IMG/VR virus record: IMGVR_UViG_3300011114_000957
Coordinates: 1-43,699 of that record
Source: a virus
Length of the DNA stretch: 43,699 nt
Strand: one strand, 5' to 3'
Shown here one piece after another: positions 11,161-43,684 of this stretch (its first letter is position 1; each line of letters starts with the position of its first letter). Below the pieces are notes generated by a model. It saw nothing but the letters and a program-made list of their open reading frames with translations. It made no database searches and was not told the origin of the DNA. The position numbers were made by a program, and so were the translations under genes.

Positions 11161-12962
11161 ATTAGTTCGCTTGTTTTTATATTTATCACGTCATCAGTAA
11201 GTAAAGAATTACTTATTTTTCCTGTTAATACGGTAATCTGGTCTTTATTTAAATGATTTATTTGTGTTTTATTGTATAGATCTATATTCAATAATTGTTT
11301 TTTTGGTGTTATAAATGTTTCATTAGTGTCTGGTGTTTGATGATTTGCCAAATAAACAGATTGCCAATTACTGTTTTGAGCTGGATCTAAAATTAAACCT
11401 GCCTGATCAACGTAAAGAGTAGAATTTAAATATTTTTCAATAGTTAATAATTGATGCTGAATAGTTTTTGTTTGCGTATATTTTCCATTAGCATCAAGTC
11501 TCCAAAAAGAAACAATAGTTCCAGAAGGATCATTCAATAATATTGGCGTTGCTTGTGTGAATTGATAAGATTTTACAAAAATTCTTTTATACACAGGATC
11601 TACCGAATCTACAACACCAGTATATTTGTAATTTGTTCCTGAGCCTTTAAGGACTATATGATTTTTTCCTGAAGTTACTTTAGAAAATATACCAGTTAGT
11701 CCTGTAGCATTTACAGTTTGTGTTGTTCCTAAACAACCAGTATTTTTACTATACGTTGTTATACTTCCCCATACTTCCAGGCTTCCGTTAGTTTTTAATC
11801 CAGCAGAATGTTTAGATCCTGCAGAAACTGAAACATAACCAGAAGAAGGAATTATGGTCTGATTATTGGCACTCAATCCCCAACCATAAGCAACTCCACT
11901 ATCAGTTACAGCTAATGCATGACCAAATCCAGCAGCAATAGCAGTAACACCTGTAATGCCTGGAATAGATTTTTGACTATATGTGTTATCACCCCAAACA
12001 GTAATTCCTCTAGTAGTTCCTAAAACACCAACACAAAAATTATATCCACAATCAATTTTAGATAAAGTTACTCCTGTTGGACCGCTTAATCCAAAATTAA
12101 CCACAGTACCATCAACTTTAATTCCAACACCACCACTAATACCACTAGTTGTCCAAGAGGTTTTAACTATTCCAGTTTGACCAGAATAATTACTATTAAA
12201 GGCAGTACAACCTCCAAAACAAACTAAAGAACCATCATTAATAATAGCTATAAGATTTTCTCCAGTAGCATCTATAAAAGTATATCCTCCATTGTTAGAG
12301 GAATATAACCGATCATTTCGAGTAAATTGAGAAGAATTAAAAGAAGGAACATTTCCCCATGCATATATGTAACCACCAGAATCTAAACAGGCAGTAAAAT
12401 AATCTCCTGCAGATACCTGAACTACAATATTTTGTTTTTCAAAATTATCTGGTATTAAACTTTGTCCAAATTGAGGATCACCACAATTATCAGAAGATGT
12501 AACTCCACCAGCACCTAAACATTTAATAGAAAATGGTCCATTTCCTGTTTCGTAGATAATTAAATCACCAACACTAATACCAGTTAGATCTACACCCTGA
12601 TATGGGTCAATTTTAGTAACATCTTGATATGCAGTAAATCCTGGAAGATAATTAGAGGTATTTGCAAACTGATAATACCAACCATCGTATTCATTTTCAA
12701 TCTGTGTCGTATAACTATCTTGTGATTGTGCCCATTGTCTTAACGGATCTTTAATACCATTTAATAAAAATAAAGACCAAAAATAGTCGGTTCGGTTAAA
12801 TAACCTTGCTGATAATTGATCTGGTCTTTCTCCAGGAATTGATATACTTGTTAATATAGTATTTTGTTGATCTACAGTAACATTAACAGATTTAAATATA
12901 TTGGTTACAGTTTGTGTAATTCCATCAAAATTATACTGAATTTTGGGAAAGTATTCGAACAT
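11157..12962 (-). CDS. 53: Baseplate wedge gp53 with inserted RCC1-like propeller
   Basis: A 601-residue protein. Residues 1-110 (MFEYFPKIQYN...GERPDQLSARLFNRTDYFWSLFLLNGIKDPLRQW) match gp53, whose T4 version contains 'RPEELANAIYGNPQLYWVLLMCN...YYGW'. Residues about 182-440 hold repeated blades such as YFTACLDSGGYIYAWG, GVGIKVDGTVVNFG, GFGHALAVTDSGVAYGWG and GSKHSAGLKTNGSLEVWG. These are RCC1-type repeats with H/C-x-x-A/G-L-x-x-D/N-G-x-x-x-x-W/F-G. The C-terminal 150 residues resume beta and helical structure. T4 gp53 has only 196 residues. gp53 clamps adjacent wedges together, so the propeller probably projects from the baseplate rim. RCC1 identity is from motif reading only. Confidence 0.8.
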   Translation of the reverse strand: MFEYFPKIQYNFDGITQTVTNIFKSVNVTVDQQNTILTSISIPGERPDQLSARLFNRTDYFWSLFLLNGIKDPLRQWAQSQDSYTTQIENEYDGWYYQFANTSNYLPGFTAYQDVTKIDPYQGVDLTGISVGDLIIYETGNGPFSIKCLGAGGVTSSDNCGDPQFGQSLIPDNFEKQNIVVQVSAGDYFTACLDSGGYIYAWGNVPSFNSSQFTRNDRLYSSNNGGYTFIDATGENLIAIINDGSLVCFGGCTAFNSNYSGQTGIVKTSWTTSGISGGVGIKVDGTVVNFGLSGPTGVTLSKIDCGYNFCVGVLGTTRGITVWGDNTYSQKSIPGITGVTAIAAGFGHALAVTDSGVAYGWGLSANNQTIIPSSGYVSVSAGSKHSAGLKTNGSLEVWGSITTYSKNTGCLGTTQTVNATGLTGIFSKVTSGKNHIVLKGSGTNYKYTGVVDSVDPVYKRIFVKSYQFTQATPILLNDPSGTIVSFWRLDANGKYTQTKTIQHQLLTIEKYLNSTLYVDQAGLILDPAQNSNWQSVYLANHQTPDTNETFITPKKQLLNIDLYNKTQINHLNKDQITVLTGKISNSLLTDDVINIKTSELI

Positions 12963-29296: not shown

Positions 29297-30028
29297 TTAT
29301 GTTATATGTTTTGCGTCATTCAATTTTTTTACATATTCGCAATAACCAGTCATCCAACTTGTACCTAATAGAGCAGATGTAACTTCTTCAATAATTATTG
29401 TTTGACTATTGGTTTGTTCGCCAAGAGACCAAGGCTTACTAGCCTCTGCTCCTCTTTTTGGACTTGTTCTCTTTACTCCAGAAAAATATTGATCTGCTGG
29501 TGTGCTTGTTCTGTCTGGAGATCCATTTGGTAGTTTTTGTGAATAATTAATACCAGGATGAAATTCTCCAAGATCAGCAGTTGTTCCTAAACTTGGCCAC
29601 GCACTTTGGCTTGGTGATGTGCCAACAAGATGGGCTTTTGTTGTGTGATGAGGTTTCATTATAATAGAATCTTGTCCAAACATGGTTGCCAGTTTAGTAA
29701 GATGATTGTGTAACATTCCATTATCGTCTCCATGATTACCAATAACCATAAAAGAATGTTCTGATACTGGAGCTTCAGTTGGTGTTCCGATATTTTCTAT
29801 AGTTCTTCCTGAAATTTTAGCAAAACTTAGTCCACGTTTTTGAAGTTCGTTAGAAAGTTGTTTTGTTAATTTTGCATTTTGTGCACCAGTTCTAACAGTA
29901 CCGTCAGGATTAGGGCTACCAACGGCTCGACTTGCACTAATAATACCAACATTCCTATTACTTCCCATGTGGGACATAATACGAGTCATTGAACTTTCTA
30001 CTAATGGAGTTGAGTATTGTATAATCAT
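29297..30028 (-). CDS. Conserved phage protein with DUF3293-like pattern
   Basis: I start at 30028 (MIIQYSTPLVESSMTRIMSH) because the longer frame would run into the tRNA-Ile gene. The 243-residue product contains GIISASRAV, a Leu-rich helix (NAKLTKQLSNELQKRGLSFA), the block ISGRTIENIGTPTEAPVSEHSFMVIG and ATMFGQDSIIMKPHH. The succession S-A-x-R...N-x-x-L...G-R...V-x-E-x-SF-x-V...FGQDS is the pattern of a widespread phage family related to DUF3293. The C-terminus has GTSWMTGYCEYVKKLN. Its upstream bases resemble the late octamers (GATATATA, then CTATT and ATG). Function unknown. Confidence 0.62.
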   Translation of the reverse strand: MIIQYSTPLVESSMTRIMSHMGSNRNVGIISASRAVGSPNPDGTVRTGAQNAKLTKQLSNELQKRGLSFAKISGRTIENIGTPTEAPVSEHSFMVIGNHGDDNGMLHNHLTKLATMFGQDSIIMKPHHTTKAHLVGTSPSQSAWPSLGTTADLGEFHPGINYSQKLPNGSPDRTSTPADQYFSGVKRTSPKRGAEASKPWSLGEQTNSQTIIIEEVTSALLGTSWMTGYCEYVKKLNDAKHIT

Positions 30029-30062
30029 AATAGTATATATCTTTCTAGTTAAATGAAACAAA

Positions 30063-30134
30063 TAGGATGCCAGGGAGTCGAACCCTGCGATAGATCGTTA
30101 TAAGCAATCCTGCGCCACCAGGCACGTACATCCC
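30063..30134 (-). tRNA. tRNA-Ile (anticodon TAT)
   Basis: Minus-strand cloverleaf: acceptor GGGATGT / GCATCCT, D arm GTGC/GCGC, anticodon stem GATTG/CGATC around CTTATAA, and T stem CAGGG/CCCTG around TTCGACT. The anticodon UAU reads the AUA codon, rare in many bacteria but frequent in AT-rich phage genes. There is no encoded CCA. One extra base sits between the D and anticodon stems. Its own promoter lies just upstream. Confidence 0.85.
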
Positions 30135-30142
30135 ATAAGAGA

Positions 30143-30170
30143 ATTATACATCCTGTTTTTCAGTTGTCAA
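30143..30170 (-). promoter_or_regulatory. Sigma70-type promoter for tRNA-Ile
   Basis: TTGACA (30170-30165), 16-base spacer, TATAAT (30148-30143), both perfect. The tRNA 5' end at 30134 is eight bases past the -10, so transcription should start within a few bases of the mature 5' end. The promoter is buried in the 3' end of the 30144-30398 gene. Confidence 0.85.
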
Positions 30171-30398
30171 GTTAATTTTAAGTTTTTTATTTGCCACATG
30201 ACCATTTTCATTCTTAATTAGGTAATTAGATTTTTGACGATCTTGGTCGTTGCCTAATCGGTAGTTGATCACATCAACCGCAAATATATTTCTGCTAGGA
30301 TGCGCCTTGTGTTCTAGTAACGCAATAATAGCCTGAGCAGTTTGTGCGGCTTCTTCTTCGGTACCCGACAGAGGAATATCAATGTGTAGACGGAACAT
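30144..30398 (-). CDS. Conserved small phage protein
   Basis: I start at 30398 (MFRLHIDIPLSGTEEEAAQT) because GGAG lies seven bases upstream; earlier in-frame ATGs lack this. The 84-residue product continues with VINYRLGNDQDRQKSNYLIK and KNENGHVANKKLKI, a compact alpha/beta protein of a kind seen repeatedly in T4-like phages. The start lies within the 3' end of the gene before it. Function unknown. Confidence 0.68.
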   Translation of the reverse strand: MFRLHIDIPLSGTEEEAAQTAQAIIALLEHKAHPSRNIFAVDVINYRLGNDQDRQKSNYLIKNENGHVANKKLKINLTTEKQDV

Positions 30399-30549
30399 TA
30401 GGTTCTCCATTATTCGTTTGTTCAATGAACTCTTTTACTTGTGATTGCAAATCTTTTAATCTTTTATTCAACACAATATAGTTTGCACTAATATTATGAA
30501 TCTCTTGCATTACTGCTAGTAAAACTTGTCTATCTCTTGGATCGGTCAC
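30379..30549 (-). CDS. Small coiled-coil protein with GTG start
   Basis: The frame starts at a GTG whose GTGA overlaps the upstream stop by four bases, and encodes 56 residues: MTDPRDRQVLLAVMQEIHNI, then a heptad helix SANYIVLNKRLKDLQSQVKE and a polar tail. It overlaps the start of the 30144-30398 gene by 20 bases. The coupling overlap and the coiled-coil argue for a real gene. Confidence 0.55.
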   Translation of the reverse strand: MTDPRDRQVLLAVMQEIHNISANYIVLNKRLKDLQSQVKEFIEQTNNGEPNVPSTH

Positions 30550-30683
30550 GAGCAATTCCTTTTGGTATTAGATTTCTTTTTACTCTTCTTTTTTTTAAAG
30601 ATCATGTCCCAGTTTTTAGCAAACTTCACTTTATCGACAGGACGATAACCATCACCTTTACCTGCATCATGTTTACTACTCAT
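30546..30683 (-). CDS. Small conserved basic phage protein, 45 residues
   Basis: The frame reads MSSKHDAGKGDGYRPVDKVK and continues FAKNWDMIFKKKKSKKKSN. The core GKGD-x-YRPVD-x-x-x-x-x-x-NWD-x-IF-x-KK is a pattern I recognise from many phage genomes, where such proteins are unannotated. It starts three bases after the stop of the 30687-30980 gene and couples to the next frame by a GTGA overlap. The basic tail suggests nucleic-acid binding. Confidence 0.7.
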   Translation of the reverse strand: MSSKHDAGKGDGYRPVDKVKFAKNWDMIFKKKKSKKKSNTKRNCS

Positions 30684-30686
30684 AGA

Positions 30687-30980
30687 TTAATCCGACGAAG
30701 TAGTTCCCCATTCGTCTAGTTCTAATGACTTAGGAAAGTTTATATTATATTCCGCAATACTTTCCTGAACATCAATATGATCGAGAACTTCATTAAGTAT
30801 GTTACGAATAGACACTAATTCACTATAGGTGTATCCGTCAATTGCTTCCTCTGTGTTCATGTTATCAAATGAGGCTAGCATTGCTCCAGAACAATGAGGA
30901 TCTCGATATACTCGAATTACTGGCTTTCGCTCATGAGTAACCGCAGACACTCCATCAACCGTAAAATTTTTATCTACCAT
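30687..30980 (-). CDS. Hypothetical protein
   Basis: A 97-residue acidic protein. A small beta N-terminus (MVDKNFTVDGVSAVTHERKP) is followed by a helix (YTYSELVSIRNILNEVLDHI). An AGGA box stands before the ATG. It is the first of four tightly coupled small genes running to 30144. No family is recognised. Confidence 0.58.
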   Translation of the reverse strand: MVDKNFTVDGVSAVTHERKPVIRVYRDPHCSGAMLASFDNMNTEEAIDGYTYSELVSIRNILNEVLDHIDVQESIAEYNINFPKSLELDEWGTTSSD

Positions 30981-30984
30981 GTTA

Positions 30985-31194
30985 TTAATCCTGTAAAAAT
31001 TGTTTATTTTCGTTAATGTCTTTACGAGCAGACTCGATTATACCACGATCAGCATCAAACCAGCCAGCACGATATTCGTCCCAATACACACCGACATTAC
31101 CACTATCGGGCATATCTCTTCCGCTTAATCTTGCTTGGTGACCTTGTTTGTATGCGTGACCTGGAATGTAATTTTCTGGCATCTTGTTTTTCAT
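30985..31194 (-). CDS. Small conserved protein with RMF-like pattern
   Basis: A 69-residue protein, MKNKMPENYIPGHAYKQGHQ and on. The order A-x-x-x-G-x-x-AR-x-SG ... Y-x-x-x-Y-x-x-GWF-x-A resembles small phage proteins and, distantly, ribosome modulation factor (A..rGy.A...G....CPY......WL.GW). The relation to RMF is weak. The ribosome site AAGGAG is nine bases before the ATG. Confidence 0.6.
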   Translation of the reverse strand: MKNKMPENYIPGHAYKQGHQARLSGRDMPDSGNVGVYWDEYRAGWFDADRGIIESARKDINENKQFLQD

Positions 31195-31297
31195 TTTGTT
31201 TACTCCTTATATAACCATTCTCATACCCAATTAGGTATAATTGTATACCTTGTAATAAGATAAGAAATGTTGCTAAAATTATAAATGTTATTTCCAT
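31103..31297 (-). CDS. Possible small membrane protein overlapping the RMF-like gene
   Basis: From an ATG at 31297 the frame gives 64 residues: a membrane segment MEITFIILATFLILLQGIQL, then YLIGYENGYIRSKQNEK and a very basic tail. The last 92 bases overlap the RMF-like gene in another frame, and the ATG follows the tRNA-Arg gene with no ribosome site. The hydrophobic start is protein-like; the basic tail may simply reflect the overlapping gene. Plausible but weak. Confidence 0.35.
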   Translation of the reverse strand: MEITFIILATFLILLQGIQLYLIGYENGYIRSKQNEKQDARKLHSRSRIQTRSPSKIKRKRYAR

Positions 31298-31308
31298 GAT
31301 ATTTTTAA

Positions 31309-31383
31309 CACACCCGATTGGATTCGAACCAATGACCTGCACTTTAGAAAAATGCTGCTACTATCCAACTGAGCTACGAGTGT
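31309..31383 (-). tRNA. tRNA-Arg (anticodon TCT)
   Basis: Minus-strand cloverleaf: acceptor ACACTCG / CGGGTGT, D arm GCTC with AGTTGGATA loop, anticodon stem GCATT/AGTGC around TTTCTAA, and T stem ATTGG/CCAAT around TTCGAAT. Anticodon UCU reads AGA, a codon common in this AT-rich genome. Discriminator G; no encoded CCA. It lies 13 bases after the stop of the Sm-like gene. Confidence 0.9.
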
Positions 31384-33365: not shown

Positions 33366-33737
33366 TTACTCGTAGAAATCTGGATATTGTTTACCGTACA
33401 GACGAACAATTTTACCAGCCATAGAGTTGGCATGATTTTCACAATCCGAACCAGTTTCACCGTCCAAGTATTCGCCCTTTTCTTGCTGGTCAGCGTGAAC
33501 CAGTTCATGGGCAATACTGCGACAAACATCAAAGCCAGCCCTACCCTTTGCGTATACTTTTATACTTTTAGTCTCTGGGCAATAGCTGGCAGTAGTCATA
33601 GTGCCGTCTCGCTCATGCACCAAGTCAATTTTTGGCTTGTTCTGCAAACCAAGGTGATTGCTGGCAAAATCAATAAAGCTCTGAATATGCGATTCTATTA
33701 GAGCATTCTCGGTCAGGTATTGGGTGAATCGTTTCAT
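33366..33737 (-). CDS. Capsid-targeted zinc metallopeptidase
   Basis: A 123-residue protein. Residues 1-10 (MKRFTQYLTE) match the T4 capsid-targeting sequence. The body is a minimal zincin: VCRSIAHELVHADQQEKGEY has HELVH at 77-81 (two His ligands and the catalytic Glu), and GSDCENHANSMAGKIVRLYG supplies a likely third ligand (Glu99). It resembles the small SprT/ImmA-like peptidases. Packaging with the DNA would let it cut a host protein at the moment of infection; a housekeeping virion protease is the alternative. TATAAATA lies seven bases before the ATG. It diverges from the rest of the packaged-protein cluster. Confidence 0.8.
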   Translation of the reverse strand: MKRFTQYLTENALIESHIQSFIDFASNHLGLQNKPKIDLVHERDGTMTTASYCPETKSIKVYAKGRAGFDVCRSIAHELVHADQQEKGEYLDGETGSDCENHANSMAGKIVRLYGKQYPDFYE

Positions 33738-33744
33738 ACACTAG

Positions 33745-33752
33745 TATTTATA
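33745..33752 (-). promoter_or_regulatory. Late promoter, exact T4 consensus
   Basis: TATAAATA on the minus strand, then CTAGTGT and the ATG at 33737. The 32-base gap also carries a plus-strand TATTAAATA (33751-33759) ten bases before the ATG at 33770, giving back-to-back late-type signals. Confidence 0.65.
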
Positions 33753-33769
33753 TTAAATATATACTTTAT

Positions 33770-34282
33770 ATGAAATCATTTACCGAATATTTAACAGAAA
33801 ATGAGGGTGTTGATGATGTTACTTCGTATAATGTGTTTCCTCATCCCAGCGGTAATCTTCATCAGTATACCTTTCCAACAAATCTGGTGACTCCTGGTGC
33901 CACCACACCAAAAATTGGTATTTTAACTATTCTACACCACGAACCAACACAAAGCATGACAGCTGGTTGGGGATTTGCGGAAAAGCCACGAACACCTATT
34001 ACCTCTTTTGTTCCACCAACACAAACAGGTCCCAAGCAAAAATTAAAAGATATGTTTAATAATGCTAGAGCTGGCTGGCATGTATTCGAATTAATAAAGC
34101 AACATTGGCAAAAACATCAAAATGAATTTCCTAATGGATTTGTTCATGCTGGTTCTGGAACAGAAAACGGTTCTGGAGAAAATCCAAAAATGGATGCTGT
34201 CTACACTGGGTTGGCAAAACGAGCAGGAATTCCAATTAAAAAGGTTTCTGTTCCTGAATTAAGATCTACATATAATTTATAA
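33770..34282 (+). CDS. Capsid-targeted protein of unknown function
   Basis: A 170-residue protein whose first ten residues (MKSFTEYLTE) match the targeting pattern. The remainder is a single alpha/beta domain: DDVTSYNVFPHPSGNLHQYT, PKIGILTILHHEPTQSMTAG, ARAGWHVFELIKQHWQKHQN and MDAVYTGLAKRAGIPIKKVS. The last part (Y-x-x-LAKR-x-GI) is loosely like the end of GNAT acetyltransferases, but the acetyl-CoA loop is not visible. Its stop overlaps the ATG of the giant gene by one base. Inferred to be packaged in the head. Confidence 0.65.
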   Translation: MKSFTEYLTENEGVDDVTSYNVFPHPSGNLHQYTFPTNLVTPGATTPKIGILTILHHEPTQSMTAGWGFAEKPRTPITSFVPPTQTGPKQKLKDMFNNARAGWHVFELIKQHWQKHQNEFPNGFVHAGSGTENGSGENPKMDAVYTGLAKRAGIPIKKVSVPELRSTYNL

Positions 34283-37200
34283 TGAAACATTTTATTCAAT
34301 ATCTCACAGAAGATTCTGACCAAATCATACGTGACAATTCCACCAAAATTCAAAAACGAATGTTGGATAATGGATTTTCAGTGCCTGCACCAGACGTTCA
34401 TAGTCATTTTAAAAATCTGCTTCGTGACATGCCAGAACACCACAAAAATTGGATTGCCAAAAGATACGCAGACGGCGGTATTAAGCATGTAGAGGATATC
34501 TCCAAAGTTTCTGCTCTATTAAAGCGTCACGATGAATTGCTTGCTCAAAACCTAATTACTCCAGGAGCACTAAAAAGTTTAAAAAATGATGCTGATTTAT
34601 TTTCTATGATAAAAAAGAGAGATCCCAAGCAACAAGTACAGATGGATGCATCACTGGTAAAACCAGAAGAATATACAGTGACAGGAGCAAACGAACACTG
34701 GACCGAAATAACTCCTCACACAGAAAATGCCGCTTGTCAGTTTGGTAAAGGAACTAATTGGTGCACTGCTTCTGAAAGTAATAGTCAATTTAATCACTAC
34801 AACAAAGATGGTCCTATGCATATTCTTATTCCTAAGAATCCTGTTCATAACGGCGAAAGATACCAGATACATCCTCACTCTGGTCAAGTTATGAACGAAA
34901 GAGATCATCGTGTAGATTTAAGCGATATTGAAAAAAATGGTGGAAGATCACATTTTCGTATGGATTTGGACGATGCTTTACTTTTACCAGAACCAAAAAA
35001 TGACAGACCATTTCCAACAGGAAATTATAAAAATTATAAATTAACAGTACATACACATAAATTGGCAAAAAATCGTGATACTGAAACTGCTCTGTCTGCT
35101 CTGAATGATCCAAACGCAGACGCAATAACTACTCAAAATGCATCAGAACACCATGATCCACGAGTTGCTTTGGCTGCAGTGAAACATCCAAAGGCAGATG
35201 CACTAACTACTCGTTTTGCGGCATACCATAGTGATTCAGAAGTTGGTATGGCAGCAATACAACACCCAAAAGCAGACTTAGAAACAACTTTTGCTGCAGC
35301 AAGACATCCTGATACAGCAGTTGCAACGGCGGCAATGGAACATCCATTGGCAAACGGAACTACAATTAATAAGGCAGCAGGCAATTCTAAAAATTCAAAA
35401 GTTGCTATTGCTGCACTAGAACACCCTTTAGCAAGTATCGAAACGCTTGAAGCTGGTGTAGAAAATGAATCTTCTCCAGTTGCTTTACACGCACTACACC
35501 TAGCAACAAATGTGCCTACATTTCGAGATTTTTTCTCTAAAACAAACATACTTCAATCTGCAGTACAACATCACGATCCAGCAGTCGTTCTTGCAGCACT
35601 AAAACATCCAGATATAAACACATTGCACCTCGGTACAGCAGCAGAGCATCGAAGCGAAGAAGTTGTATTAGCAGCATTAAAACATCCAAAATCAAATCAA
35701 ATAACAGTTGAAAATGCATCTGATCCTAGCTCTGCTAGTGAACATGTGCTTCGAGCAATAATAAAACATCCACACGTAAGTGATCTTAGTCTTGCAAACG
35801 TAATAATGGGTTATCATAGTAATTCGGAAATTCAACTAGAAGCATTAGATCATCCAAAAGTTGATGATAGTGCACTTAGTGCTGGAGCAAAGCAGACGGA
35901 TTATAGAGTTGCTCTAAAAGCTGTGCAACACCCAAAGGCAGGAACTCATGCACTAGAACAAGGAGTACGTCACCACAATGCTACAGTTGGACTAGCAGCA
36001 CTACGACACCGAAATGTAGATTCGCAGACAATAAGAGCAGCATTAGCAAGCAAATATAACGATCCAGCAGTTGCTTTGGAGGCACTAAAGCATCCATTAG
36101 TAAACGAATATCATCTTAAGATAGCAGCAGGACACGAAAACCCTGAAGTTGTTATGGCAGCATTACAACACCCAAAGGCAAATGGACAAACTGTTGAACA
36201 CGCAATAGCATACGGAAGACATAATTCTGAAATTGCTATGGCAGCATTACAACACCCAAAGGCAAATGCAGCAACAACTCATGGTGCAGCAAATCATTTT
36301 GATCCAGCAGTTGCTTTGGCTGCACTAAAACATCCATTAGCAGACGAACAGACAGCTAGAACAGCTTTATTTAATCATGCAGGTGAAGACCCAAATAATG
36401 CTTTAGCACAACAGATAAGGACGGCAGCAGGACAAAAGATACACCTTACTCCAGATGTTGTATCACAACGAACAATAACAGAATCTTATTTTAAATCAAA
36501 AATTAAATCTCTTGTTAGATATAATTTAATACAGCCTTCTGCTGACTATATCACAGAAGATTATCAGCAAACATTGCGTGACAATCAGACTAAAATTGCA
36601 AAACGAATGAAAGATCATGGATTTCTTCCAGGAGTTACAGAAAATCCAGATCTTATTCACTCAGTTTTTAATGGATCAGGAGATTTTAATAATTTATCAG
36701 ATCAGCATAAATCCTGGATTGCTAAAAGATACGCAGATGGCGGTATTGAACAAGTAAAAGATCAACCAGTCCATAGGGCTTTTACAGAAGTTATTAAAGA
36801 TTTAAAACAACACGACGAACTTGTTGCCGCTAAAAAAATTCCATCAACAGGATTAAAATCTTTATCTACTGGAGATGCTCTAAAGAAAATGTTGGCAAAA
36901 TTTGGTCGTCCATCTGGTGTAGAACCAGAAGAATATAAAGTAGAATCAGAAAACGAACACTGGTCTGTGGTTATACCTCATACCAGCAATGCATCTTGTG
37001 GTTTTGCTGATCAATCTAGATGGTGTACAAATTCAAGAGAAAATACATCCCAGTTTGAAGACCACACAAGAAAAGGTCCTTTACGTATCATTATACCAAA
37101 AAATCCACAATATAAAGGAGAAAAATATCAATGGCATCAAGCTACTGATACTGGTACTGGACAATTACACCATTCATTTATGAACAGAGCAAACCTACCT

Positions 37201-40200
37201 GCTAGTTTTATTACTATGACCTCAGATGGTACTAGACCACTTCCTCCTGGACCAGTAGCTGATAGGATGGAACAAGTTAAACAATCATCTAGAAAAATTA
37301 AAGCACAATTAGATGATCCAAATGCTTCACGCAACATACTTGAAACCGCAGTAAGACATTCAGATCCTGATGTTGCAATCGCAGCATTAAATCACACAAA
37401 TTCAGATCCTGAGTTAATTGAACAAGCAATGTCACATCCAGATTTAAAAGTTGCAAAAGCAGCAATTACCTCTAGAGTTCCTGTAACAAAACATGCATTA
37501 GGTAGTGGAGTACGTAACCCAAATCCAGAGATTGCATTATACACATTACAGCATAGTAGTATAAACAATGATCATGTTCTAGCCGCATTAGAACATTCAG
37601 ATCCAAAAGTTGTATTGACTGGTTTATCTCATCCTGCATTACAGGACGTTGGATCTTCGCTTAGAAAATTAGCATCATCGAAACATAAACAACTTGTAAT
37701 GGCAGCACTAAAACATCCAAAAGCAGATCTTGATGTAATAAAATTTGCAATAAATAATCAAAATCCTGAAATTAGTAAAGCTGTATTATCTCAGCATCCA
37801 AATTTAAGTTCTCAGACAATTAATGAAATATTAGACAGCCCTTATGTTAATCATCATACTGCAAAAGCATTATTGTCACATCCAAACGCAAACACACAAA
37901 GTGTTAATCACGTTCTTAATTATTCAGATGATCCAGAACTTGGTTTGATGGCTATAAATTCTCCGCATGCAGATGTAAAAACAACGTGGTCTGCAGCACG
38001 GAACGGAAGTAAAGAAGTTGCTTTTGCTGGTCTAAAACACCCGTTAGCAGACCAAACAACAACTCAATTTGCAGCACAAAATCATACTCATCGTGATGTT
38101 GCAATAGCAGCATTAGAACACCCATTGGCAAATGCAGAAACAGTCCTTCAGGCAGCAAAAAATAATAGTCATCCTGATGTTCCAATAGCAGCATTAGGAC
38201 ATCGATTGGCAGATACACTCACAACTGTTCAAGCAGCAGAAACTCATACCAATAGTCGTGTTCGTTTAGCAGCAATACAACACCCAAAAGCAAGTCAAGA
38301 AACATTATATGCAGCAAAACATACTACAAATCCTGATGTTGCTGCAGCAATATTAAAACATCCATTATTGAATGATAAAGATATTATTAATACTATAATG
38401 AGTCAGTATAAAGATACAAACTCTGCAACTGAACCCATACAAATGATGGCAGTAAATCACCCAAATGCAGACACAACCACAACTCATTTCGGAGCACAAA
38501 GCGGGCATCCACATGTTGTTATGGCAGCTTTGCAATCTCATAATGCAGATATTAGAACAATTAATTTAGCAGCAAGTAATCCTCAACTCAAAGATCCAGG
38601 AGTTGCCATGGCAACTCTAACACATAAATATGCAAATGCAGAGACAACTCATCATATAGTACAAAATAAAAATGCAGAAATTGCTATGGCTGGTCTGAAT
38701 TCTCCACACGCAGACGCAAGAACAACTCACCTTGCTCTAAGTCATCGTGATTCAACAGTTAAACTAGCGGCTATAAATTCTCCGCATGCAAACGCAGACA
38801 CAATTCGTGGTGCAATGAGGGGTGAGGAAGCAGAAATAGCTATGGCAGCTCTGGCTTCTCCGCATGCAGACACAAAAGCAACTCATATAGGAGCACTGAG
38901 TAATCATGCACAAATTGTTATGGCGGCACTGCGTTCTCCGCATGCAGACGCAAGAACAACTCATAATGCAGCAGGACATAAGATTCCAGAAGTTAGTCTG
39001 GCGGCTCTGGCTTCTCCGCATGCAGACGCACAAACAACTCATTATGCAGTACAGCATGATAGCGAATATGTTGCTAAAGCAGCTCTGGCTTCTCCACACG
39101 CAGACGCACAAACAACTCATCGTGGAGTACAGAGTAAAAATATGGAAGTCGTTATGGCGGCTCTGCGTTCTCCGCATGCAGACGCAAAAACAACTCATAG
39201 TGCAGTAAATCAGAGAAATAAAGCAATTGCTCTAGAGGGTCTGGCTTCTCCGCATGCAGACATAGAGACAATTTATGGGGCAGCAAGTCACAGTAATCCA
39301 GAAGTCGTTATGGCGGCTTTGGCACACCCCCTGGCAGACGAATATGCAGTTAATCGTGCATCAGAGCAACGAGATCCAGCAATAGTTATGGCAGCACTAA
39401 AACATCGAAAAGCAAATAATGTTACAACCCATAATGCAGTGTCTAACTCTAATCCAGAAGTCGCTCTAGCTGGTCTGCGTTCTCCGCATGCAGATAACCA
39501 CACAACTGAGAATGCAGCACAACACTACCATTCGCATGTTGTTCTGGAGGCTTTGGCTTCTCCGCATGCGACTGCAGAAACAACTCATGTTGCAGCAGGA
39601 CACAGCAATCCAGAAGTCGCTATGGCGGCTGTAGCTTCTCCGCATGCAAACCAACACACAGCTTATCTTGCAGCAGGACACAGCAATCCAGAAGTCGTTA
39701 TGGCGGCTGTAGCTTCTCCACATGCAGGCACAGAGACAATTAATCGTGCAGCACACAATCGTGATTCCAAAGTTGTTTTAGCTGCTATACGTTCTCCGCA
39801 TGCAGACGCAAGAACAACTCATATAGGAATAAGGAATCAGGATGTACACGTTGGTTTAGCAGCTCTGGCTTCTCCACACGCAGACGCAGAAACAACTCAT
39901 CATGGTGCAACTCATTTCCATACCGCTGTTTCTCTGGCAGCTGTGAATCACAAACATGCAGACGCAATAACAACTTATAACGGAGTACAATCTCCTAGTG
40001 CAGAAGTTGCTATGGCAGCTCTGGCTTCTCCTCATGCAACCACAAAAACAACTCATCATGCAATGAATAATGAAAATGCAGTAGTTAATTCAGCAGCTTT
40101 AGCTTCACCACACGCAGACGCAGCAACAACTCATCATGCTTTTGATCTTAATCGTGAAGATCTTTCTCTGGCGGCTCTGGCTTCTCCGCATGCAGACGCA

Positions 40201-40644
40201 AGAACAACTCACCTTGCAACAATGAGCGGCAATCAAGCAGTCGCTACGGCTGGTCTGGCTTCTCCGCATGCGGATGCAGAAACAACTCACTACGCAGTAA
40301 GAGAAGGTGATTTTCCAGAACTTGGTCTGGCAGCACTAAAACATAAGCATGCAGACGCACTAACAACTCATCATGCATTCTTAAACAGAAATCCAGCAGT
40401 CGCTCTGGCGGCTCTGGGTTCTCCTTATGCAACCACAAGAACAACTCATAATGCAGTAAGATATGACAATGCAGATGTCGCTTTAGCAGCTCTGGATCAT
40501 CCGCATGCGGATGAGCAAACGTTTAGTATTGCAGCAAGACACCATAATGCGGATGTGCGTCTACTGGCTGGTATGAGTCTAGCGGCTAGAAAATCTGATG
40601 CGGCTAGAAAAGCTGGTGGTATTTTAGATACTGGTACCGCATAA
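34282..40644 (+). CDS. Giant capsid-targeted alpha-solenoid protein, two fused modules
   Basis: A 2120-residue protein starting MKHFIQYLTE (targeting pattern). Module 1 has an N-terminal domain (residues 11-265) with WIAKRYADGGI and GKGTNWCTAS, then about 17 repeats of 26 residues (265-705). The joint ITESYFKSKIKSLVRY leads to module 2 at YITED (756-760), where the whole order repeats: WIAKRYADGGI, the second domain with SRWCTNS at 912-918, then about 42 repeats (1015-2105). Repeats read ALASPHADAxTTHxAxxHxNPEVxMA and recall leucine-rich-variant or HEAT solenoids. [LI]-x-E sites at E10, E734 and E759 are candidate prohead-protease cuts. The long open frame continues without frameshift. Confidence 0.8.
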   Translation: MKHFIQYLTEDSDQIIRDNSTKIQKRMLDNGFSVPAPDVHSHFKNLLRDMPEHHKNWIAKRYADGGIKHVEDISKVSALLKRHDELLAQNLITPGALKSLKNDADLFSMIKKRDPKQQVQMDASLVKPEEYTVTGANEHWTEITPHTENAACQFGKGTNWCTASESNSQFNHYNKDGPMHILIPKNPVHNGERYQIHPHSGQVMNERDHRVDLSDIEKNGGRSHFRMDLDDALLLPEPKNDRPFPTGNYKNYKLTVHTHKLAKNRDTETALSALNDPNADAITTQNASEHHDPRVALAAVKHPKADALTTRFAAYHSDSEVGMAAIQHPKADLETTFAAARHPDTAVATAAMEHPLANGTTINKAAGNSKNSKVAIAALEHPLASIETLEAGVENESSPVALHALHLATNVPTFRDFFSKTNILQSAVQHHDPAVVLAALKHPDINTLHLGTAAEHRSEEVVLAALKHPKSNQITVENASDPSSASEHVLRAIIKHPHVSDLSLANVIMGYHSNSEIQLEALDHPKVDDSALSAGAKQTDYRVALKAVQHPKAGTHALEQGVRHHNATVGLAALRHRNVDSQTIRAALASKYNDPAVALEALKHPLVNEYHLKIAAGHENPEVVMAALQHPKANGQTVEHAIAYGRHNSEIAMAALQHPKANAATTHGAANHFDPAVALAALKHPLADEQTARTALFNHAGEDPNNALAQQIRTAAGQKIHLTPDVVSQRTITESYFKSKIKSLVRYNLIQPSADYITEDYQQTLRDNQTKIAKRMKDHGFLPGVTENPDLIHSVFNGSGDFNNLSDQHKSWIAKRYADGGIEQVKDQPVHRAFTEVIKDLKQHDELVAAKKIPSTGLKSLSTGDALKKMLAKFGRPSGVEPEEYKVESENEHWSVVIPHTSNASCGFADQSRWCTNSRENTSQFEDHTRKGPLRIIIPKNPQYKGEKYQWHQATDTGTGQLHHSFMNRANLPASFITMTSDGTRPLPPGPVADRMEQVKQSSRKIKAQLDDPNASRNILETAVRHSDPDVAIAALNHTNSDPELIEQAMSHPDLKVAKAAITSRVPVTKHALGSGVRNPNPEIALYTLQHSSINNDHVLAALEHSDPKVVLTGLSHPALQDVGSSLRKLASSKHKQLVMAALKHPKADLDVIKFAINNQNPEISKAVLSQHPNLSSQTINEILDSPYVNHHTAKALLSHPNANTQSVNHVLNYSDDPELGLMAINSPHADVKTTWSAARNGSKEVAFAGLKHPLADQTTTQFAAQNHTHRDVAIAALEHPLANAETVLQAAKNNSHPDVPIAALGHRLADTLTTVQAAETHTNSRVRLAAIQHPKASQETLYAAKHTTNPDVAAAILKHPLLNDKDIINTIMSQYKDTNSATEPIQMMAVNHPNADTTTTHFGAQSGHPHVVMAALQSHNADIRTINLAASNPQLKDPGVAMATLTHKYANAETTHHIVQNKNAEIAMAGLNSPHADARTTHLALSHRDSTVKLAAINSPHANADTIRGAMRGEEAEIAMAALASPHADTKATHIGALSNHAQIVMAALRSPHADARTTHNAAGHKIPEVSLAALASPHADAQTTHYAVQHDSEYVAKAALASPHADAQTTHRGVQSKNMEVVMAALRSPHADAKTTHSAVNQRNKAIALEGLASPHADIETIYGAASHSNPEVVMAALAHPLADEYAVNRASEQRDPAIVMAALKHRKANNVTTHNAVSNSNPEVALAGLRSPHADNHTTENAAQHYHSHVVLEALASPHATAETTHVAAGHSNPEVAMAAVASPHANQHTAYLAAGHSNPEVVMAAVASPHAGTETINRAAHNRDSKVVLAAIRSPHADARTTHIGIRNQDVHVGLAALASPHADAETTHHGATHFHTAVSLAAVNHKHADAITTYNGVQSPSAEVAMAALASPHATTKTTHHAMNNENAVVNSAALASPHADAATTHHAFDLNREDLSLAALASPHADARTTHLATMSGNQAVATAGLASPHADAETTHYAVREGDFPELGLAALKHKHADALTTHHAFLNRNPAVALAALGSPYATTRTTHNAVRYDNADVALAALDHPHADEQTFSIAARHHNADVRLLAGMSLAARKSDAARKAGGILDTGTA
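35080..40570 (+). repeat. 78-bp tandem repeat array in the giant gene
   Basis: The coding repeats have a 78-base unit (26 codons), interrupted at 36385-37320 by the module joint and second N-terminal domain. Units from about 38690 onward are the most alike, sharing TCTCCGCATGCAGACGCA with the SphI-like palindrome GCATGC. Units before 38000 are diverged in base sequence although the protein pattern persists. Confidence 0.85.
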
Positions 40645-40647
40645 ATA
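40640..40647 (+). promoter_or_regulatory. Late-promoter-like octamer
   Basis: CATAAATA overlapping the giant gene's stop codon, then CAGT and the ATG at 40652. The string ATAAATACAGTATG is nearly the same as that before the small basic gene at 21953. The short intergenic gap suggests extra late transcripts for the downstream gene. Confidence 0.5.
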
Positions 40648-40651
40648 CAGT

Positions 40652-43003
40652 ATGAATCCTTTTCTTACATATTTAACCGAAGACTCTAAATCTACTATAG
40701 ATAATAATTCTAAATTAATAGAAAAAAAATTAAAGGCGCATGGAGTTGATCTGCCGCCAGGTAGTCCAGGAAGCGTTCACGACTGGTTTAATGGCGTGAT
40801 GGGTGCGGCACCAGAACATCATAAATTGTGGATAGCAAAAAGATATGTTAGTGGCGGTATTGCTCATACCGAAGATATTCCTGGAACTTTAAATTTATTG
40901 CAACGTCACGACCAGTTACTGGCGCAGGGCAACATATCTAGTGGAACCCTACCAAAACTAAAAACTAATGCAGAATTATACTCTTTCGTAAACAAAAATG
41001 ATCCTGATAAAGATGTGGCTGTTGGAAAGGAAAAGGTTAATTCTGAACTGGTAAAGCCACACGAATATACTGTGACAGGAGAAAATGAAGACTGGACCGA
41101 AATAACTCCTCACACAGAAAATGCTAGTTGTTATTTTGGTAAAGGAACTAATTGGTGCACAGCTCCTACTGGCAATAATTCTAGCAATCAATTCAACGAG
41201 TATAATAAACAGGGTCCTATTCATATTCTTGTTCCTAAAACTCCACGACACAAAGGAGAAAAATATCAGGTACACGCTCCAACACATCAAATAACAGACG
41301 AAACAAATACAGAAGTAGATTTTAGGGAAATAGAAGGATATCAACGACCAGTTCCTCATAAAGGAAAAATTAGTGAATATAAACAAAGACTAGAAACACA
41401 TATGCATGCAGAGAGTCCTGATTCAGCAATTGCTCTGGCTGCTCTGGCTTCTCCGCATGCAGACGCAAGAACAACCCATTATGCAGCACAAAATCGTAAT
41501 GCAGATGTTGCTTTAGCGGCTCTGGCTTCTCCGCATGCAGACGCACACACAATTTATATGGCAGCATTAAGTGCCAATCAAGCAGTCGCTATGGGGGCTC
41601 TAACACATAAACATGCAAATGCGGAGACAACTCATGCTGCAGCAAAAAGTCCTGATCCAGCAGTCGCTATGGCTGGTCTGCGTTCTCCGCATGCAGATCG
41701 TAAAACAACTAGTTTTGCAGTAGGACACAAGGATCCAGCAGTCGCTCTTGCGGCTCTGGCTTCTCCGCATGCGGATAACTACACAACTAAGGTTGGAGTA
41801 GAACGTAAAGAGCCTGCAATTGCTCTGGCAGCTTTAAATCATAAAGATGCAGATAAATATACAACTCGTATAGCAGCAGGGCACAGCAATCCAGAAGTTG
41901 CTCTGGCAGCTTTGAATCATAAAGATGCTGATATTTTTACAGCTCAAAGTGGAACATATCACCCCAACCGTAATGTTAAGAATGCGGCTTTAGTACTTCA
42001 AAATACATTAAGAAACGAAAAAAGATCTTTACCAGAATCCTATTCTCTTGGAAAAATTAAGCCTTTTATTCGATTTTTAAGCGAAGAAGATCTGACTCTG
42101 GAGTATCACGACACTCTGAATCCTAAAATTTGGGATGGAGACGAGTTAAAACCAGAGGTTCAGGCTAAATTGCTCCAGATTGCCAAGAAATGGGCAACCT
42201 TTGCCAAGATTCCAGACTTTGCCGTCACAGATATCATCCTGGTTGGCGGCAATGCCAATTACAACTGGACAAAATTCTCGGATCTTGACCTGCATGTCGT
42301 TGTGAATCGTGAAGATCTGGCTGATTGTCCTGATCTGCTAGACGATTATCTGCAAAATAAAAAACAATTATGGGCCCTGGTGCACGACATCACGATTTAC
42401 GGTCATGATGTGGAACTTTACGCTCAAGACAAGGAGACTCCTTACCCGAAAAAGCAAGGAGTCTACAGCGTCAAGGGTAAAAAGTGGATTGTCCAGCCGA
42501 AACACGAAGCGGTTGACTTTCGTGGACCTGTTTTACTGGCAAAAGTGAAGCAGTATACGGAAAGAATTGATACTCTGATCTCTACAAATGCGGAAGATGA
42601 GAGTTTTTCCAAATTAAAAGAAAAATTTAAGAATATGCGCTCCTCAGGCTTGAAAAAGATTGGAGAATTCTCTCTGGAAAACTTAATTTTTAAAGAATTA
42701 CGAAATCGAGGAGTAATTGACCGAATGACGAAGTATTTACAGTCACGACTAGACCAAAAACTCAGTTTAACAGAGAATTATGATTTTCAACTTCAAATTC
42801 ACAACAATAAAACCAACGAATTAGTTGGAGTGAAGCAGTTAAACAGTGAAACAAAATATAAAGCAATGGATATAGGTCTCAGAGCTATACAAGACGCAAA
42901 AAGAGGATTCAAATCAGAATATCCCAAAGCAGGTGATGTGGCAGATCATCACTTTTCTATAAGATATCCACACGATTCCAGTTGGATCACTCCAAACAAT
43001 TAA
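40652..43003 (+). CDS. Capsid-targeted fusion: solenoid plus nucleotidyltransferase
   Basis: A 783-residue protein starting MNPFLTYLTE. Residues 11-250 are the same N-terminal domain as in the giant protein (WIAKRYVSGGI, GKGTNWCTAP). Residues 258-446 are about seven 26-residue repeats. LPESYSLGKIKPFIRFLSEE (460-479) contains IKPFIRFLSE, a second targeting-sequence copy with Ile for Met. Residues 480-700 form a nucleotidyltransferase-fold domain: LEYHDTLNPKIWDG, GGNANYNWTKFSDLDLHVVV (the G-x...S-D-x-D signature) and DVELYAQD for the third acid. A last domain follows LTE (706-708). Related nucleotidyltransferases occur in many T4-like phages. I infer delivery into the host after cleavage. Confidence 0.82.
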   Translation: MNPFLTYLTEDSKSTIDNNSKLIEKKLKAHGVDLPPGSPGSVHDWFNGVMGAAPEHHKLWIAKRYVSGGIAHTEDIPGTLNLLQRHDQLLAQGNISSGTLPKLKTNAELYSFVNKNDPDKDVAVGKEKVNSELVKPHEYTVTGENEDWTEITPHTENASCYFGKGTNWCTAPTGNNSSNQFNEYNKQGPIHILVPKTPRHKGEKYQVHAPTHQITDETNTEVDFREIEGYQRPVPHKGKISEYKQRLETHMHAESPDSAIALAALASPHADARTTHYAAQNRNADVALAALASPHADAHTIYMAALSANQAVAMGALTHKHANAETTHAAAKSPDPAVAMAGLRSPHADRKTTSFAVGHKDPAVALAALASPHADNYTTKVGVERKEPAIALAALNHKDADKYTTRIAAGHSNPEVALAALNHKDADIFTAQSGTYHPNRNVKNAALVLQNTLRNEKRSLPESYSLGKIKPFIRFLSEEDLTLEYHDTLNPKIWDGDELKPEVQAKLLQIAKKWATFAKIPDFAVTDIILVGGNANYNWTKFSDLDLHVVVNREDLADCPDLLDDYLQNKKQLWALVHDITIYGHDVELYAQDKETPYPKKQGVYSVKGKKWIVQPKHEAVDFRGPVLLAKVKQYTERIDTLISTNAEDESFSKLKEKFKNMRSSGLKKIGEFSLENLIFKELRNRGVIDRMTKYLQSRLDQKLSLTENYDFQLQIHNNKTNELVGVKQLNSETKYKAMDIGLRAIQDAKRGFKSEYPKAGDVADHHFSIRYPHDSSWITPNN
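41425..41990 (+). repeat. 78-bp tandem repeats, second array
   Basis: About seven units coding ALASPHADARTTHYAAQNRN-type repeats. The base sequence of the first units (CTGGCTTCTCCGCATGCAGA) is essentially the same as in the giant gene 1-3 kb upstream, so the two arrays can recombine or have exchanged sequence. Confidence 0.8.
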
Positions 43004-43672
43004 TTATTTTTGATTATATGCCGCATCAATTGCTGCGTAATAGGCAGGATCTTGTTGGCGTGAAGCATTGCGCCAATACTGAACAAATCTTTCACGATCT
43101 TGTGGCGACATTTCCTTGGTGTCATCAATCTTCAGTTCACGCATCTTGCCACGCATCACACCAACCGCCATTTGTTGATACGGTTTATGGTATTTTTCAT
43201 CACTCAGAGTGCCGCAACCACCAGGACCACATGCGTCTCCTATCTTTACATTACCTAACATGCGTTTTCCTTGTGCCACATACTGGTTTACGTAGTCTTC
43301 CTGTCCCTTGAACAGGTCAGGCTGAGTCTTTAAAAAACCAGCAGCAGTGGACTTGGTGATCTGAACTGGACCATAGGCAGTGGATTTACCTGATGCCTGT
43401 TTTGTTCTGATGTATTGTGCTGGGTTATAGTCTAGAGCATTTCCAATATCAGTTCCTCGGTGTTCTCCAGCCACAAGAGCCTGATACAATTTCATGTTAT
43501 GTGCGCCGCCAAAGTGAGCATACGGATCGGCTACTGGAGCAGCAGTCTGGGTGGTGGGAGCGGCTGCAGGTGGAGCTGGTGGTGCCTGGGCTCCAGCAGC
43601 CAGCATGGAGCCAGCCAAAGCCAGGGGAGCCAATACGGAACCTTCTTGGAGATATTCGATAAATGGTTTCAT
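43004..43672 (-). CDS. Capsid-targeted lysozyme (SLT/transglycosylase-like)
   Basis: A 222-residue protein. Residues 1-10 (MKPFIEYLQE) follow the targeting pattern with Gly11 after the Glu. Residues 12-50 are hydrophobic and then Ala/Pro-rich (VLAPLALAGSMLAAGAQAPP), which could also serve as an export signal once exposed. Residues 58-222 are lysozyme-like: ALVAGEHRGT with Glu70 as the likely catalytic acid, then SGKSTAYGPVQITKSTAAGF, the S-x-AxGPxQIT signature of soluble lytic transglycosylase-type enzymes. It probably cuts peptidoglycan during entry. It is convergent with the fusion gene, with stop codons adjacent. Confidence 0.78.
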   Translation of the reverse strand: MKPFIEYLQEGSVLAPLALAGSMLAAGAQAPPAPPAAAPTTQTAAPVADPYAHFGGAHNMKLYQALVAGEHRGTDIGNALDYNPAQYIRTKQASGKSTAYGPVQITKSTAAGFLKTQPDLFKGQEDYVNQYVAQGKRMLGNVKIGDACGPGGCGTLSDEKYHKPYQQMAVGVMRGKMRELKIDDTKEMSPQDRERFVQYWRNASRQQDPAYYAAIDAAYNQK

Positions 43673-43676
43673 ACCA

Positions 43677-43684
43677 TATTTATA
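43677..43684 (-). promoter_or_regulatory. Late promoter, exact T4 consensus
   Basis: TATAAATA on the minus strand followed by TGGT and the lysozyme ATG at 43672; upstream is a run of T. With T4-like spacing the transcript would begin within a base or two of the start codon. Confidence 0.65.

Follow-up and report, generated by a model that had tools for sequence, protein, structure and literature searches.

Five adjacent genes encode proteins with similar decapeptide starts

We analyzed IMG/VR virus record IMGVR_UViG_3300011114_000957, a stretch of 43,699 bases that is referred to here as the window and in which five adjacent genes (positions 33,366 to 43,672) encode proteins that begin with similar ten-residue sequences, or tags. 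The window is a fragment of a T4-superfamily genome, as recognized by gp6, gp25, gp53, a gp4-like head completion protein, the tail tube, the baseplate hub, gp32, and the late co-activator gp33. Two contigs are collinear with it: G002 (52,792 bp), with 81% mean DNA identity across 73% of the window, and G001 (153,850 bp), with 78% mean DNA identity across 52%. The tagged genes and the modules of their products are as follows, with a slash marking the position after the Glu residue that ends a tag.

33366..33737, minus strand: tagged gene 1, MKRFTQYLTE/N and a 113-residue HExxH metallopeptidase-like body (AHELVH...DCENHA)
33770..34282, plus strand: tagged gene 2, MKSFTEYLTE/N and a 160-residue body
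34282..40644, plus strand: tagged gene 3, MKHFIQYLTE/D and 2,110 residues, 227 kDa when mature
34312..35031, plus strand: gene 3, "WCTA" domain copy 1 (GTNWCTA...GPxHILIPKxP...GExYQ)
35059..36486, plus strand: gene 3, alpha-alpha solenoid block 1, 26-residue repeats (period 26)
36499..36558, plus strand: gene 3, internal degenerate tag KIKSLVRYNLIQPSADYITE followed by D, at the junction of two modules
36559..37296, plus strand: gene 3, "WCTA" domain copy 2
37309..40626, plus strand: gene 3, solenoid block 2
40652..43003, plus strand: tagged gene 4, 783 residues, MNPFLTYLTE/D, WCTA domain, solenoid, internal tag, and nucleotidyltransferase
42056..42085, plus strand: gene 4, internal former tag IKPFIRFLSE/ED, with ATT where G001 has ATG
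42086..42769, plus strand: gene 4, nucleotidyltransferase domain (GGN...SDLDLH; phrog_36119, E value of 7e-83)
43004..43672, minus strand: tagged gene 5, MKPFIEYLQE/G, a hydrophobic stretch, a Pro/Ala linker, and a lysozyme-like body (AYGPVQITKST)

A sequence-only reading had described these genes as five neighbors with a common tag start, unrelated bodies and, in gene 5, a lysozyme. Their coordinates were upheld; all five are intact open reading frames (ORFs), and no other ORF in the window carries the tag. The bodies are less diverse than proposed: genes 3 and 4 share the N-terminal WCTA domain (52% identity) and the 26-residue repeat, leaving four independent body types instead of five. The lysozyme assignment lacks support from Pfam, PHROG, or PDB, none of which returned a match to gene 5, and was made by eye inspection only. 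Relatives of gene 5 were sought in known phages and none was found; its homologues in G002 and G001 are 88% and 82% identical and retain the tag. Past the tag (43037-43642), the alanine-rich hydrophobic stretch and the Pro/Ala linker resemble a membrane or export segment preceding a possible cell wall enzyme.

Gene 1 also has homologues that retain the tag in G002 (97% identity) and G001 (92%), and one in cyanophage B23 (40%) starts with MNYKQFLRE; its only Pfam match was a weak one to DUF6782, a putative metallopeptidase (E value of 0.04). For the body of gene 2, relatives were sought, including by a pattern scan, and none was confirmed. The start of gene 3 overlaps the stop of gene 2 (TAATG). 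The nucleotidyltransferase domain of gene 4, which matches NTP_transf_2 below the cut-off (E value of 0.0013), has relatives in T4-like cyanophages.

Searches of Pfam and PDB with the WCTA domain gave no match, Foldseek gave none at an E value of <0.001, and the structure models of the domain were poor (predicted local distance difference test [pLDDT] scores of 58 and 64). A pattern scan confirmed no relatives of the domain; contig L263, which emerged from the cassette scan described below, combines the tag MLSFRQYLKE with a WCTA domain (40% identical) and repeats, which is the architecture seen in the window. The model of solenoid block 1 (pLDDT of about 90) consists of paired helices. A variant leucine-rich repeat was considered and rejected; because Pfam gave no support and the model showed paired helices, the label was limited to alpha-alpha solenoid. 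PADLOC returned only a weak SIR2 match over the repeats, which was dismissed as noise.

The tag matches the T4 capsid-targeting sequence and is rare by chance

The sequence-only reading had aligned positions 4, 7, 8, and 10 of the tags with the T4 sequence MKTYQEFIAE, and comparison with the sequence taken from AF158101 bears this out. Each tag occupies the extreme N terminus, about ten residues, with an aromatic residue at positions 4 and 7 (Phe4 and Tyr7 in all five) and LTE or LQE, that is, L/I-x-E ending at residue 10. In the T4 capsid-targeting sequence (CTS), residues 4 and 7 serve mainly targeting and residues 8 and 10 processing, the prohead protease gp21 cleaves after L/I-x-E, and the tag suffices to package a foreign protein (PMC9026906). 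The T4 gp23 cleavage site, FLTE/A (T4 sequence), is close to the YLTE of the window.

The five ORFs provide the sole strict matches to M-x-x-[FY]-x-x-[FY]-[LI]-x-E at any start codon of the window, and the looser pattern M-x-x-[FYWLIV]-x-x-[FYW]-[LIVM]-x-E again retrieved only these five among the window ORF starts. When residues were shuffled within the 48 called genes, a mean of 0.017 matches was expected by chance, and the probability of at least five is about 1e-11 by a Poisson estimate; counting genes 3 and 4 as one event left the conclusion unchanged. As a positive control, the same regular expression was applied to 60-108 kb of T4 (1,037 in-ORF start codons), where only ipII and ipIII matched. 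T4 internal protein (IP) I (MKTFKEFTSTTTPVSTITE) escapes the motif search because of its longer propeptide.

Bodies are exchanged behind a conserved promoter and tag

The island of tagged genes is poorly conserved in the relatives, with G001 and G002 covering only 19% and 36% of it, compared with 74% and 79% of the 9.4 kb that precede it (24-33.4 kb). The promoter and tag DNA of gene 2 is that which drives a lysozyme-like gene in G002 and G001: the 45 upstream bases are 91% identical and the first five codons 93% (G002), whereas the rest is 49% identical. In gene 2, the body has been exchanged while the promoter and tag that precede it were conserved. The locus is a swap site, at which promoter and tag are conserved and metallopeptidase-like, nucleotidyltransferase, solenoid, lysozyme-like, and other bodies are exchanged. 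Similarly, the ip loci of T-even phages encode diverse proteins that have only the targeting sequence in common (PMC3012670, PMC12373910).

The earlier reading had named a gp21-type protease and further tagged starts as features to look for in the full genome, and G001, the nearest long relative, has both. Its prohead protease is of the gp21 type (PF03420, E value of 1.2e-35; phrog_207, E value of 2e-74) and lies in a head module with terminase, portal, scaffold gp22, and gp23. Candidate L/I-x-E sites are present in its gp23 (QQYISE/ANTMG) and gp21 (KFLTE/AADG). At least six G001 genes are tagged (MLSFIQYLAE, MLSFLQYLTE, MKPFIEYLRE, MKTFIEYIQE, MKRFTQYLTE, and MKSFREYLKE), the first of which has a GTG start and is located at the contig end. 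Five strict tags are present in G002, which additionally has MLSFKQHITE on a protein whose body gives a weak ParB-like hit. The tag arsenal is not universal, since strict tags are absent from the gene starts of G003 and G004, two unrelated T4-like contigs that encode gp21. In the MKSFREYLKE gene of G001 (118335-118709; L200), we observed that the tag directly precedes CWTGYKAVGTKRKGKRQVPNCVP and DUF6321; this peptide is located at the C terminus of larger proteins in PHROG families.

Late-promoter-like boxes and tags form a recurrent cassette

Sequences resembling T4 late promoters lie immediately upstream of tagged genes.

33738..33769: divergent promoter region, 32 bp between the ATGs of genes 1 and 2
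33745-33752, minus strand: TATAAATA for gene 1, 7 nt from the ATG
40640-40647, plus strand: CATAAATA for gene 4 (C at -13), 4 nt before the ATG
43677..43684, minus strand: TATAAATA for gene 5, 4 nt before the ATG

The gaps between box and ATG in the window are thus 4, 4, or 7 nt. Among the tagged genes of the window, only genes 1 and 5 have an exact TATAAATA, and no consensus late box was found upstream of gene 2. Late-promoter-like boxes 2 to 7 nt before many starts were also noticed in cassettes L231-L343, in the window, and in G001 at 55186 and 63157.

To take a census, IMG/VR was scanned for TATAAATA followed by 2 to 9 nt, ATG, and codons for F4, Y7, L8, and E10. A single body family made up 100 of the 127 hits of a first census pattern; the present pattern, in which the promoter distance is more restricted, yielded at least 119 stretches. 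In all but one of 120 cassettes, the reading frame stays open for 40 codons or more or as far as the end of the contig, and box and ATG are exactly 5 nt apart in 100 of the 120. The T4 late box spans -13 to -6 (PMC2988020). With a gap of 5 nt, the ATG therefore falls on +1, which makes leaderless late mRNAs likely. Among the matches listed, 116 bodies of at least 40 residues fell into 37 clusters, and Pfam matches in the cassette bodies include DUF6267, NUDIX, zeta toxin, Zn protease, integrase, DUF6321, and NTP_transf_2. T4 gp23 was found in 9 of 25 cassette contigs, many of which are short.

As a control, the Glu10 codon was replaced by Lys10 in the pattern. Only 35 stretches were retrieved from the whole collection, compared with at least 119 for Glu10; 21 of the 35 are open, most belong to one family (MSYFRSYFEKNN...), and their spacing is scattered. 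This control supports selection for Glu10 without proving it, Lys being one alternative residue only.

Other clusters of tag-like starts were noticed. Contig L116 (5781-8444) has six tagged genes in a cluster, some ADP-ribosyltransferase (ART)-like by eye, and cyanophage S-CRM01 (L002, 14983-19561) has the tag-like starts MNFSEFLEA, MISFDQFLSE, MKKLDQFLTE, and MKLFNQFFKE, some on genes annotated as kinases.

Former tags lie inside fused proteins

Two of the window proteins contain a second, internal tag. In gene 3 (2,120 residues), aromatic-[LIVM]-x-E sites occur only at residues 7 to 10 and 756 to 759, the latter exactly before the second copy of the N-terminal domain. In gene 4, such sites occur only at residues 7 to 10 and 475 to 478. 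The nucleotidyltransferase of G001 is a separate tagged protein starting with MKPFIEYLREDDLTLEYHDTLNP, whereas in the window and G002 it is fused behind solenoid repeats, the former ATG now being ATT and the tag internal. The internal tag of the G002 fusion is IKPFLKYLTE/ED, and aromatic-[LIVM]-x-E sites are again confined to two positions, residues 7 to 10 and 490 to 493. The nucleotidyltransferase tag is likewise internal in a more distant contig (L125), and three others (L126, L036, and L054) have separate tagged versions. Judging from the position of these sites, cleavage at the internal tags would release whole modules.

A tagged enzyme has been reported from cyanophage virions

In 49 kb of phage S-SM1 that were searched, the only strict tag is that of SSM1_190 (MKKFSAFLNE/AERS), a cytidylyltransferase of cluster T4-GC190 whose orthologue in P-SSM2 starts with MKSFSQFLTE. 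T4-GC190 peptides have been reported from purified S-SM1 virions (PMC3037559). In the jumbo phage PA5oct, EST35_0205 (MKLFEVFTLYEDK...), a homologue of the WCTA domain, is annotated in its GenBank record with electrospray ionization tandem mass spectrometry (ESI-MS/MS).

The tags probably target proteins to the phage head

The ten-residue starts are very probably CTSs of the T4 kind on proteins that are packaged in the head and likely injected. The motif and its rarity, the late-promoter-like boxes, the turnover of bodies, the gp21 head module in a near relative, and the tagged cyanophage virion protein speak for this. The sequence-only reading had taken the common start for a T4-like delivery tag, and this view was strengthened by the gp21 and the additional tagged genes of G001 and by the S-SM1 virion protein.

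Several observations weigh against this interpretation. No PF03420 match to gp21 was found in the window, which is uninformative for a fragmentary record. Ala mostly follows Glu10 in T4, whereas residue 11 in window genes 1 to 5 is N, N, D, D, and G and is varied in the census. The mature isoelectric points of the five products are 5.6, 9.2, 6.7, 7.3, and 9.1, so that three of the five are not basic, unlike the T4 IPs; their sizes range from 13 to 227 kDa, and a 227-kDa cargo is far above the size of any T4 internal protein. Finally, a loose motif was not enriched among the PA5oct proteins noted for ESI-MS/MS (5 of 88, compared with 15 of 302; P = 0.48), from which we conclude that the motif decays in distant jumbo phages.

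For the window phage, packaging, trimming, internal cutting, and injection can be proposed by analogy with T4. Late in infection, promoters of the T4 late type, located a few bases upstream of the ATG, would drive the genes. The aromatic residues 4 and 7 would draw the proteins into the prohead core, where gp21 would trim them after Glu10. The same protease would probably also cut the internal former tags, after residue 759 in gene 3 and residue 478 in gene 4, and the two large proteins might each be delivered as two modules. DNA would then be packaged around the proteins, which would be ejected with it into the next host.

The tag may instead bring proteins into the prohead as core or assembly factors, or as trapped passengers that are not injected. 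Core proteins gp22 and gp67 likewise carry L/I-x-E sites (T4 sequence; PMC9026906), and a 227-kDa solenoid could serve as a scaffold or length gauge. However, the exchange of bodies between close relatives is unexpected of assembly factors, many tagged bodies resemble enzymes with targets in the cell (NUDIX, zeta-toxin-like kinase, Zn protease, and nucleotidyltransferase), and T4 injects its IPs and Alt (PMC9026906, PMC12373910). We consider an exclusively structural or passive role unlikely.

It is far less probable that the common start has a role in expression, such as initiation on leaderless late mRNAs, and not in targeting. The 5-nt spacing of most cassettes, with its probably leaderless transcripts, and the AT-rich start codons would fit such a role. 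Yet the aromatic residues 4 and 7, the aliphatic residue 8, and Glu10 are kept through synonymous codons (TTT/TTC, TAT/TAC, and GAA/GAG), and the tag persists inside fused proteins, at sites that play no part in initiation. Moreover, G001 structural genes, including those for the portal and a tube-like protein, have late boxes equally close to their starts, and these two proteins lack the motif. That the starts are a functionless relic of recent 5'-end duplication or recombination is scarcely credible despite the promoter and tag DNA common to gene 2 and the lysozyme-like gene of the relatives, given that the five tags have a mean DNA identity of only 70% with all four key positions kept and that the same positions recur in T4 and unrelated phages. 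Chance, paralogy, and a translation-only role were thus rejected on the basis of motif rarity, diverged tag DNA, codon variation, and internal tags.

Beyond head targeting in the window phage, a broader proposal is made tentatively, with slightly more doubt than confidence. In T4-superfamily phages beyond the coliphages, a portable cassette of late promoter, about 5 nt, start codon, and tag may turn almost any gene product into head cargo, and some of these products may be polyproteins that the prohead protease cuts at internal tags inside the capsid, releasing effector modules.

Comparison with known head-packaged proteins

A targeting sequence shared by variable internal proteins is classical T4 biology. 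The window tags resemble the CTS of T4 IPII and IPIII in being N-terminal decapeptides with aromatic residues 4 and 7, an aliphatic residue 8, and Glu10; in both systems, unrelated bodies stand under one tag at a variable locus, expression in the window is likewise probably late, and a gp21-type protease is encoded by the near relative of the window. They differ in that the window bodies are mostly not small and basic, residue 11 is not Ala, cargo reaches 227 kDa, a putative promoter lies immediately before the ATG, and tags also occur inside fused proteins. Because they are not small basic proteins, the window proteins were classed only as carriers of a CTS-type tag and not as IPs.

T4 Alt, an ADP-ribosyltransferase, is likewise an enzyme carried in the head, with a propeptide processed by gp21 in T4 (PMC9026906), but no Alt homologue was identified among the five genes, ART-like bodies being seen by eye in relatives only. 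Cyanophage T4-GC190 (SSM1_190), an enzyme from a related member of the T4 superfamily, has the same type of tag and is reported in virions; its body is different, and the tag is not remarked on in the available portion of PMC3037559. Head-packaged effectors are a recognized theme (PMC9503650). Polyvalent proteins, MuF fusions, and other such effectors (PMC9503650, PMC5512222) are also multidomain and probably injected, but they rely on fusion to a head or portal domain or on very large proteins, whereas here a ten-residue tag is used. No account of the tag as a cassette in cyanophage-like or environmental T4 phages was found in the open-licence literature. What is new is the scale and diversity of the cargo, the solenoid cargo of 227 kDa, the former tags that lie inside proteins where modules join, and the fixed distance between promoter and tag.

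T4 IP1 to IP3 each block a different GmrSD nuclease (PMC12373910). The tag occurs on dozens of unrelated proteins in other T4-like phages, and phages that bring a kit of ready-made proteins to their hosts may therefore be far more numerous than has been recognized. Head-packaged injected proteins act before phage gene expression and decide survival of restriction and other early defenses; to our knowledge, almost none are known outside the T-even phages. If the tag is reliable, packaged effectors, including proteins without a family, could be read from the sequence of very abundant environmental phages, and the ten-residue tag, combined with a late promoter close to it, would offer a ready means of loading other T4-like phages with proteins. 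A new testable point raised by the internal tags is that of prohead proteases as polyprotein processors.

Other observations in the window

Three features outside the island were noted. At 11157-12962 (minus strand), a gp53-like baseplate wedge protein is fused to RCC1 repeats (Pfam RCC1_2, E value of 1e-20), an unusual baseplate architecture. A gene at 29297-30061 (minus strand) has a weak match to S-adenosylmethionine lyase (PF23780, E value of 4e-4) and a DUF3293 match and is a possible antirestriction gene. At about 30050-31350 (minus strand), upstream sequences resemble tRNA fragments (GGTTCGACTCCC and CTCGTAGCTCAGTTGG), and tRNA genes are possible there.

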